Origin: an uncultured Synergistales bacterium
Lineage (GTDB): Bacteria; Synergistota; Synergistia; Synergistales; Aminobacteriaceae
Assembly (NCBI GenBank): GCA_905234075.1
Contig: CAJOGI010000005.1
Coordinates: 1-64,000 of the forward strand
Direction: 5' to 3'
Length of the DNA: 64,000 nucleotides
In this document: piece by piece, positions 47,614 to 49,618 of the stretch
Numbering within the stretch: the first letter of the stretch is position 1
Layout: every line of letters begins with the position of its first letter
Translations under genes and position numbers: made by a program
The notes under the pieces: generated by a model
The model's input: only the letters and a program-made list of their open reading frames with translations
Databases searched by the model: none
Told to the model about the DNA's origin: nothing

Positions 47614-48138
47614 TTATAAATTTATGACCAGAGAAACGAAATTGTCTATTTTTTGCGGCGTGCTTTCTGTTTTGGCAGGGGCTTTGGCAGGGGGTATCAC
47701 TCGGCAGCCCTGAAAAGCAATTGCACCATAAGAAAAACTGCTGCATACTCCCTCTATTGTTGCTTTCTGACCTCTTTGTAACTTGGCTACGTTGTCATTA
47801 TCTGCCCATCTCATTGTGAACGCCATGTCAGCTGAACTTTGAAGGCTATCGCTAAGGCCAACAACAACTGTGCGAGTTCCCGCAAAATTAATTTTGTCTG
47901 TTACAATTCCAGAAACCCTCACCCTCACTCTTTTTCTGAAAATCCTTTTGGCAAATGCATCATGATTTTCTTTATATTGCCTGAAAACCTCTGCAGCGGT
48001 TACCTCAATCACTTCTTCCGAAGCTGACGGTTGTGAGTTTGTGCTTGCGGCAAAAGTTCGAGACACGGACACTGTAAACATAAATATAAACACGAATAAA
48101 GTAAACACAGCGCAACGTAATAATTTGATGTTTTTCAT
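47614..48138 (-). CDS. Secreted tRNA_anti-like OB-fold protein
   Basis: The product of about 174 residues has a signal peptide (to about residue 30, RTFAA) and an OB-like domain (about 45-155) with VTAAEVFRQYKENHDAF, RVRVSGIVTDKI and KATIEGVC. It resembles the tRNA_anti-like family. I place the start at 48138, eight bases after AAAGGAG, rather than the upstream codon. Nucleic acid binding is not shown. A role outside the cytoplasm is inferred from the signal peptide. Confidence 0.7.
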   Translation of the reverse strand: MKNIKLLRCAVFTLFVFIFMFTVSVSRTFAASTNSQPSASEEVIEVTAAEVFRQYKENHDAFAKRIFRKRVRVRVSGIVTDKINFAGTRTVVVGLSDSLQSSADMAFTMRWADNDNVAKLQRGQKATIEGVCSSFSYGAIAFQGCRVIPPAKAPAKTESTPQKIDNFVSLVINL

Positions 48139-48260
48139 AGTAACATCTCCTTTCAAATTTTTTACAACAATGTGCGCTGAAAAATTCCTTGCGATTACGA
48201 AGAAATTACCCAGCGCGGAAATTTTTGCACACGACTAATAATTACTCGCCTCTTTTTCTG

Positions 48261-48269
48261 TGATATAAT
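48261..48269 (+). promoter_or_regulatory. Extended -10 promoter of the candidate small RNA
   Basis: TGATATAAT matches the extended -10 consensus (TGn then TATAAT). A transcript would start about 48275-48277, right at the closing helix described below. Confidence 0.6.
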
Positions 48270-48276
48270 AATTCAC

Positions 48277-48383
48277 AGGATAAGTTATGATAAATGGAGA
48301 ACACACTCCAAAAGTCGAGGTGCTTTATAAAAAAATCAAATTTTCAAAAAATATTATAGCACAAAAACCTTATCCTTTTTTTT
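48277..48383 (+). ncRNA. Candidate small RNA (about 100 nt) with closing helix and T-tract
   Basis: AGGATAAG (48277-48284) pairs perfectly with CTTATCCT (48369-48376), which is followed by eight T residues. Inside, TGGAG/CTCCA (48295-48310) makes a hairpin and GTGCT/AGCAC (48320-48363) closes a second arm. The whole forms a small multi-branched structure framed by a promoter and a terminator-like tail. It also contains a 36-codon ORF (ATG at 48288), but structure and coverage favour an RNA. It matches no RNA family I know. It lies in the 400-base gap between the OB-fold gene and pfkA; both neighbours are on the other strand. Confidence 0.55.
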
Positions 48384-48482
48384 ATTTTCACGGCTAAAAA
48401 TTTTTATGAAATTACACGTAAAGAAAAGAAATTTTATACACACTTACACACGCGGTAAAATGTTCGAGGCGGAGTGAAATAT

Positions 48483-48541
48483 AGGTAGGAATTAGGAATG
48501 AAAAAAACTACCTCCTACCTCCTACCTCCTAACTCCTAATT
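48483..48541. repeat. TAGGAG heptamer inverted array before pfkA stop
   Basis: AGGTAGGAATTAGGAA is followed by A7 and CTACCTCC repeated three times and CTAACTCCTAA. The inverted arms can form a long hairpin. On the minus strand the array carries the TAG stop of pfkA. Confidence 0.85.
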
Positions 48542-49534
48542 ATTTAAGTGGCTTCCAGACGCTGCAATAGCTTCAAGAATTTCGTATCTGTCCATCTGTA
48601 AATGTTTCTTCATTGCTAGAGCCTCTTCTATCGGAATTTCAACAATTCCGCCTTCGCGCGTAGCGATGACGCTCCCCGAACGTCCTTCAGCAAATGCCCT
48701 GACCGCGTAATAGCCCATTCGCGTGGCGGTCTCTCTGTCGCGTCCCGTCGGTGCTCCGCCCCTTTGAATATGTCCCAAGACCGTAACACGCGGATCGATG
48801 CCTATCGCTTCTTTAATCTTTGCGCCGATTTCAAATGCACTTCCAGCGCCTTCAGCAACGACTATCATAAAATGCGTAGCTCCTGCTAATCTGGAGTTCT
48901 GTATTCTTTCGACAACATCTTTTTGAAAATCAACTTCGCGCTCAGGAATTAAAACTGAAGTCGCACCGACCGCTATTCCGACATAAAGAGCTAAAAATCC
49001 TGCGTGTCTTCCCATGACCTCGACAACTGAGCAGCGTTCATGAGACTGCATTGTGTCGCGCAGCTTGTCAATACATTCAATCGCCGTGTTGCATGCCGAG
49101 TCAAATCCTATTGTGTAATTTGAGCATCCTATGTCGTTGTCAATCGTTGCAGGGATACCCATAACGGGAACGCCGAGCCTTGAAAGTTCCAACGCGCCTT
49201 TGAAAGTTCCGTCCCCTCCGATAGCAACGATGCCGTCAAGCCCCAGCATTCTGCAAGTCCCTACAGCTTTTTCGCGTCCTTTTTCCGTCATAAATTCTTC
49301 GCTGCGTGCCGTATATAAAATCGTGCCGCCTCGTCCGAGAATGTGCCGCACCATATTAACATCAAGTATTACAAAATCGCTGTTGATTAAACCGGAATAG
49401 CCGCGCCTAATGCCTACACACTCAATTCCATAGTGCATTGCCGTTCTCGCTACGGCTCTGACGACCGCGTTCATGCCGGGCGAATCTCCTCCGCTTGTGA
49501 GTACGCCGATGCGTTTAATTTTTTTGTCTGCCAT
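48536..49534 (-). CDS. pfkA: 6-phosphofructokinase
   Basis: The product of about 332 residues has IGVLTSGGDSPGMNAV, AIGGDGTFKGAL and PATIDNDIGCSNYTIG, with a Gly after GGD typical of ATP-dependent enzymes rather than the pyrophosphate type. It phosphorylates fructose-6-phosphate in glycolysis. I place the start at 49534 (MADKKIKR), downstream of GGAGGC, rather than at 49555. TATAAT on the minus strand (about 49598-49603) is a likely -10. The stop is within a heptamer array. Confidence 0.94.
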   Translation of the reverse strand: MADKKIKRIGVLTSGGDSPGMNAVVRAVARTAMHYGIECVGIRRGYSGLINSDFVILDVNMVRHILGRGGTILYTARSEEFMTEKGREKAVGTCRMLGLDGIVAIGGDGTFKGALELSRLGVPVMGIPATIDNDIGCSNYTIGFDSACNTAIECIDKLRDTMQSHERCSVVEVMGRHAGFLALYVGIAVGATSVLIPEREVDFQKDVVERIQNSRLAGATHFMIVVAEGAGSAFEIGAKIKEAIGIDPRVTVLGHIQRGGAPTGRDRETATRMGYYAVRAFAEGRSGSVIATREGGIVEIPIEEALAMKKHLQMDRYEILEAIAASGSHLNN

Positions 49535-49618
49535 GATTGATAAAAATGCCTCCAATTTTATTTTTGAATTTTAATTTTGAAAGTTTGAAGTGAAATTTAT
49601 TATACGCGATTTTTTTTG

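Follow-up and report, generated by a model that had tools for sequence, protein, structure and literature searches.

The window, a 64,000-nucleotide stretch of genomic DNA from an uncultured Synergistales bacterium, contains two minus-strand genes, one for a PF12869 OB-fold protein (47614-48138) and pfkA (48536-49555), and the gap between them is where the first-pass annotation had placed a candidate small RNA with its own promoter and closing helix. The extended -10, the closing arms, the T8 tract and both inner hairpins all lie where that annotation had put them, and the fold is as it described. The features of both strands are, in order of position:

47614..48138, minus: downstream gene, a secreted OB-fold protein of 174 aa (PF12869, tRNA_anti-like; Pfam E 1.2e-12), with a ribosome-binding site and an ATG at 48138
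48139..48346, minus: predicted 5' leader of this gene, about 208 nt, its extent deduced from B' and the ATG at 48138
48172..48218, minus: H2, leader hairpin GCGCTG..CAGCGC, before the ribosome-binding site
48227..48237, minus: A, 3' arm of the candidate minus leader helix; GCACACGACTA on the plus strand, at about -50
48259..48269, plus: B, extended -10 TGTGATATAAT of the plus RNA (TRTGnTATAAT), with the core TGATATAAT at 48261-48269
48277..48383, plus: predicted antisense RNA, about 105 nt, with covariation and end-to-end covariance-model matches in 37/43 genus genomes
48277..48284, plus: C, 5' arm of the closing helix P1, AGGATAAG (7/7 pairs covary)
48288..48317, plus: P2 inner stem (TGAT/GTCG) and apical hairpin P3 (TGGAG/CTCCA; arms 48295-48299 and 48306-48310, variable in sequence among copies and present in the fold)
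48313..48323, minus: A', 5' arm of the candidate minus leader helix, internal to the plus RNA
48320..48362, plus: P4 stem GTGCT/AGCAC (arms 48320-48324 and 48358-48362; 93% of cells paired)
48353..48363, minus: B', extended -10 TGTGCTATAAT, facing the plus promoter (ATTATAGCAYA, nearly invariant in copies)
48369..48376, plus: C', 3' arm of P1, CTTATCCT, with covariation
48376..48383, plus: T-run (eight T's) of the intrinsic terminator
48536-49555, minus: pfkA, the other neighbour

The arms C and C' lie 92 bases apart, start to start, and the plus strand folds at -19.4 kcal/mol (z = -2.9 against dinucleotide shuffles). Within the 64 kb both matches to TRTGNTATAAT fall inside the element, where 0.23 would be expected, and a good -35 box is not evident for either promoter. 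At the 3' end of pfkA (48482-48540) there is also a short tandem repeat, CCTACCTCC, of three to four units, in part complementary to TAGGTAGGAATTAGGAAT, which lies just before it on the plus strand.

For the window and 20 further loci Rfam returned only two tRNAs and no relevant match at the gathering score, and at permissive E-values the below-threshold matches were mostly to eukaryotic families and at chance level. A known Rfam family was therefore rejected as an identity for the element, in line with the first reading, which could assign it to no known class. A 2022 review counted one annotated sRNA family for Synergistetes (PMC9029176), and the element, if this reading is right, would add a new family of structured RNAs to a phylum in which hardly any small RNAs have been described.

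When relatives were searched at the DNA level, one copy was close and several others were about 70% identical, the gene surroundings being mostly unrelated. Covariance models were then applied to an order sample of 183 genomes, 43 of them in the window's genus, which we take to be Fretibacterium-like Synergistaceae from the gut, many of them from ruminant gut samples. Model R1, built from seven copies, matched 32/43 genus genomes at E <= 0.1, with several copies per genome in many of them, and gave no match in the sample's other 140 genomes. Model R2, built from 50 copies, matched 37/43 genus genomes and one genome of a neighbouring genus, and did not find the family in the remaining genomes of the 183. 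A deeper search at E <= 1 gave 36, 21 and 21 copies in three genomes; all such counts carry rough E-values and come from metagenome-assembled genomes that may be incomplete. The window genome has one copy only. Most copies have diverged, and positions adjoining prs, ileS, a ccdA-like gene and pfkA hold the module in several species, so that it is old at those places.

The outer helix is strongly supported by comparison of these copies. In a 50-copy alignment P1 was paired in 98.6% of cells, with two-sided changes at 7/7 pairs (variants include GGATAAG/CTTATCC, GGACAAG/CTTGTCC and GGGTAAG/CTTACCC), and RNAalifold recovered it, C' included, without prompting. Because that alignment had been fitted to the model, P1 was re-tested independently of it, with the best 3'-arm position chosen anew for each copy and each of 1000 shuffles: 279/287 positions were Watson-Crick, whereas the shuffles averaged 242 and never exceeded 254, so that 0/1000 reached the observed value, a type of test that is inflated by the relatedness of the copies. 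P2 was paired in 82% of cells with two-sided changes at 4/4 pairs, and the first pair of P4 was GC in 25 copies, GU in 18 and AU in 6. At positions 4-8 after C' the frequency of T was 0.78-0.93 (41 copies), and TRTGnTATAAT preceded 38/39 later-fetched copies though it lies outside the model. A CTGTG..CACAG hairpin around the plus -10 was tried as a covarying leader stem and failed, 220/500 shuffles being equally good.

A conserved structure with compensatory changes, followed by a U-run, is what marks an intrinsically terminated bacterial small RNA, and a promoter of its own is present at the sequence level. Two of the checks that the first-pass annotation had proposed, a covariance search of related genomes and compensatory changes in the outer helix, thus both favoured an element coding for an RNA, with a promoter motif of its own, a closing helix that covaries and a terminator. 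Its further proposal, that the flanking genes on the opposite strand make this a stand-alone transcript, was not supported: the element is tied to the opposite-strand gene and contains that strand's conserved promoter-like site and leader helix, so that it is best read as one half of a convergent, mutually antisense module, and the opposite-strand neighbours turned out to be the important clue rather than a sign of independence.

On the minus strand, B' is a perfect extended -10, identical in motif to the plus promoter's, and a second, opposite extended -10 (TRTGCTATAAT) lies inside nearly every copy. Convergent TATAAT..ATTATANCAYA pairs occur in 38/43 genus genomes against about 0 for a reversed-pattern control, and TRTGNTATAAT is enriched genome-wide about sixfold (35 vs 6 in the reversed control). 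In other phyla, the convergent -10 pair was found, among the matches listed, in a translation-factor-like coding sequence (IIAHIDHG), which we take to be LepA/TypA, and otherwise in unrelated Oscillospiraceae repeats or single chance-like matches; the viral-contig matches listed were without internal blocks. Oscillospiraceae and Ruminococcus flavefaciens have a different dispersed repeat, in which TGCTATAAT-like sites are inverted around GC-rich hairpins such as CTTTTGCTCCCCGACTTCGTCGGGAACCGCAAAAG (loci L137, L143, L145, L146, L225, L241, L243).

Block A (GCACACAAC) lies outside model R2 and is present at >= 8/9 letters in 35/39 later-fetched copies, with 0.4 expected. It pairs with the internal A' only as minus-strand RNA. 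The letters of A and A' that are not Watson-Crick are 50 A-C against 4 G-T on the plus strand, which is to say 50 G.U on the minus strand against 4 on the plus, as wobble pairs would appear if the minus strand is RNA. RNAalifold recovered the A'-A helix from the minus-strand alignment, G.U being the commonest pair at one position, with 83% of cells paired and two-sided changes at 8/13 pairs. Support for this helix is real and weaker than for the outer helix, the covariation being modest and partly carried by related copies. B', A and A' are conserved blocks beyond what the plus RNA alone explains.

These blocks bear on an alternative reading, that the plus RNA is a stand-alone small RNA acting in trans on distant mRNAs, its placement before minus-strand genes being coincidental or a by-product of gene duplication. 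The promoter motif, covarying closing helix and terminator, and the sequence core common to the copies, would all suit such an RNA, yet it leaves the conserved internal minus -10, the upstream block A and the A'-A pairing with its minus-strand wobbles without explanation, as it does the placement at prepilin genes described next, and we consider it unlikely.

With gene starts called by a simple ribosome-binding-site rule, a minus gene start lay within 330 nt beyond A in 55/67 copies, against 21/67 on the plus side, and the gene usually began about 100 nt further on. The minus-side association persisted when near-duplicates were removed (33/41 non-redundant copies, p = 1e-4) and in a later-fetched second set (32/40). 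Among 78 modules in three genomes a prepilin-like gene lay directly downstream in 59, on the opposite strand in all 59 and on the same strand in 0. The target genes that are not prepilins often encode signal peptides, and include leucine-rich, ankyrin, SH3 and glycine-zipper proteins, lipoproteins and a few enzymes. The predicted targets are mostly secreted, prepilin or enzyme-like proteins of 80-500 aa, not small hydrophobic toxic peptides, and a type I toxin-antitoxin system was rejected on that ground. Prepilin-motif genes are expanded in the four module-rich genomes (46 in G028, 35 in G033, 29 in G010 and 26 in G030, where the median for the remaining 39 genus genomes is 10), and across the 43 genomes module number correlates with prepilin number (rho 0.41), a correlation that is driven by these four, falling to 0.20 and losing significance when they are left out. 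The window genome has 17 prepilin motifs, yet its single copy is not at a prepilin.

So strong a placement upstream of minus genes might mean that the minus strand is all that matters, the element serving the downstream gene as its promoter and structured 5' leader, and the features on the plus strand being by-products. The leader is indeed predicted to be structured: it folds with z = -2.5, overlaps the plus RNA over 48277-48346 and contains the hairpin H2. Related hairpins (GCGC..GCGC with a GGTAGTTTC motif) are present in about 20 non-prepilin copies, again in the minus leader; their stems differ by changes that look compensatory (GCGCC/GGCGC, GCGCTG/CAGCGC, GCGTCA/TGACGC), and they have no match in Rfam. 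A reading confined to the minus strand gives no role to the plus T-run, to the start-spaced geometry of B and C or to the C-C' covariation, since C' lies upstream of the predicted minus start, and it seems to us quite unlikely. H2-type hairpins were seen in the window and at L032, L080, L082, L097, L102, L107, L110, L111, L116, L119 and L122. In the predicted minimum-energy fold of the leader (48138-48346, minus) the CTCC strand of P3 would pair near the ribosome-binding site of the PF12869 gene.

The element could also act as DNA, whether as a mobile repeat resembling a MITE, an invertible promoter or a regulator-binding array, and its dispersal at up to 36 copies per genome and its inverted repeats count in favour. 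Against this, the pairs cross (A-B-C..A'-B'-C') rather than nest, A and A' match only through one-strand wobbles, orientation to the gene is nearly fixed, and the copies, mostly diverged, are in some cases kept at positions common to several species. An inverton was rejected because A-A' is inexact with one-strand wobbles and because no flipped internal order was seen in the copies read. We regard a DNA-level element as very improbable.

We therefore favour, at a probability of roughly 0.7, a module of two convergent, mutually antisense RNAs that controls the minus-strand gene, a reading built on conservation, covariation on both strands, the terminator, the promoter motifs and the association with an opposite-strand gene. 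In terms of sequence features the locus has what defines a cis-antisense module, namely an RNA opposite the 5' region of a gene and promoters that face each other. Promoter B (48259) would drive the plus RNA of about 105 nt, closed into a multibranch structure P1-P4 and ending at the U-run, while promoter B' (48363, minus), inside the plus RNA gene, would drive the PF12869 mRNA with its leader of about 208 nt, in which A' and A would form a closing helix of their own. On the minus strand A is followed by a weak T-tract; a terminator was searched for directly after the minus helix with that result, and the minus RNA is accordingly treated as a read-through mRNA and not as a second small RNA. 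The block order A-B-C ... A'-B'-C' along the DNA means that the two transcripts would share the segment from C to A' as perfect complements. Each would have one closing helix, C-C' on the plus and A'-A on the minus strand, with its second arm outside the shared segment, and RNA-RNA pairing across C-to-A' would have to open both. The two polymerases would also meet head-on.

In this convergent module the plus RNA would end at a terminator and be antisense to the 5' leader of the downstream gene; by analogy with anti-Q of pCF10, with its converging promoter and leader termination, it would most likely lower expression of that gene through antisense pairing and transcriptional interference, which together would give switch-like expression. 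Transcription, duplex formation and repression are what we infer from these features, and the effect may have the opposite sign, by antitermination.

In the prgQ/prgX system of the Enterococcus plasmid pCF10, anti-Q binds prgQ transcripts and induces a termination structure, and it too is an antisense RNA whose promoter converges with that of the operon (PMC6540685). The pCF10 unit is plasmid-borne and tied to the PrgX repressor and pheromone peptides, whereas the module described here is chromosomal and often multicopy, with no plus-strand protein seen. Genes for a prgX-like repressor or pheromone peptides are absent at the window locus, where the neighbours are PF12869 and pfkA, and neighbours elsewhere vary. 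Furthermore, anti-Q induces termination in the leader, whereas the minus leader here has a weak T-tract only. IS10 RNA-IN/RNA-OUT likewise sets a short structured antisense RNA from an opposing promoter against an mRNA 5' end; RNA-OUT covers the transposase start region, whereas the overlap here is more than 100 nt ahead of the start codon, with no transposase involved. In the antisense-mediated transcriptional attenuation of rep genes on plasmids such as pT181 and pIP501, antisense pairing to the nascent leader decides between alternative leader helices. The present module differs in that no clear terminator follows the minus helix and in that the target is not a replication gene.

The recurrence of the module at pilus-protein genes suggests an undescribed RNA-based on/off control for surface proteins. 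If true, the design would be unusually regular, with two convergent RNAs that have their own closing helices and can each open the other's; the prepilin paralogues would gain a common, testable control element, and RNA-level switching would be linked to the large expansion seen for pilin-like genes in uncultured gut bacteria. In pilin-rich species of this genus dozens of dispersed prepilin genes may each have their own interlocked antisense RNA. As the modules share the core GTC[AG][TA]GTGC and GCACACAAC, it is conceivable, though doubtful, that their RNAs also act on one another's leaders as an RNA-only network that sets which pilins a cell makes; this would amount to alternative expression of a surface-protein repertoire. 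We also observed a compact subfamily of about 82 nt in G030, G010 and G028 (e.g., L281, L290, L295), with nearly identical cores (GAGACAAAGAATATGC..GCACTAATTGTGTGCG) and an A' that matches A almost perfectly, which lies almost exclusively at prepilin genes.
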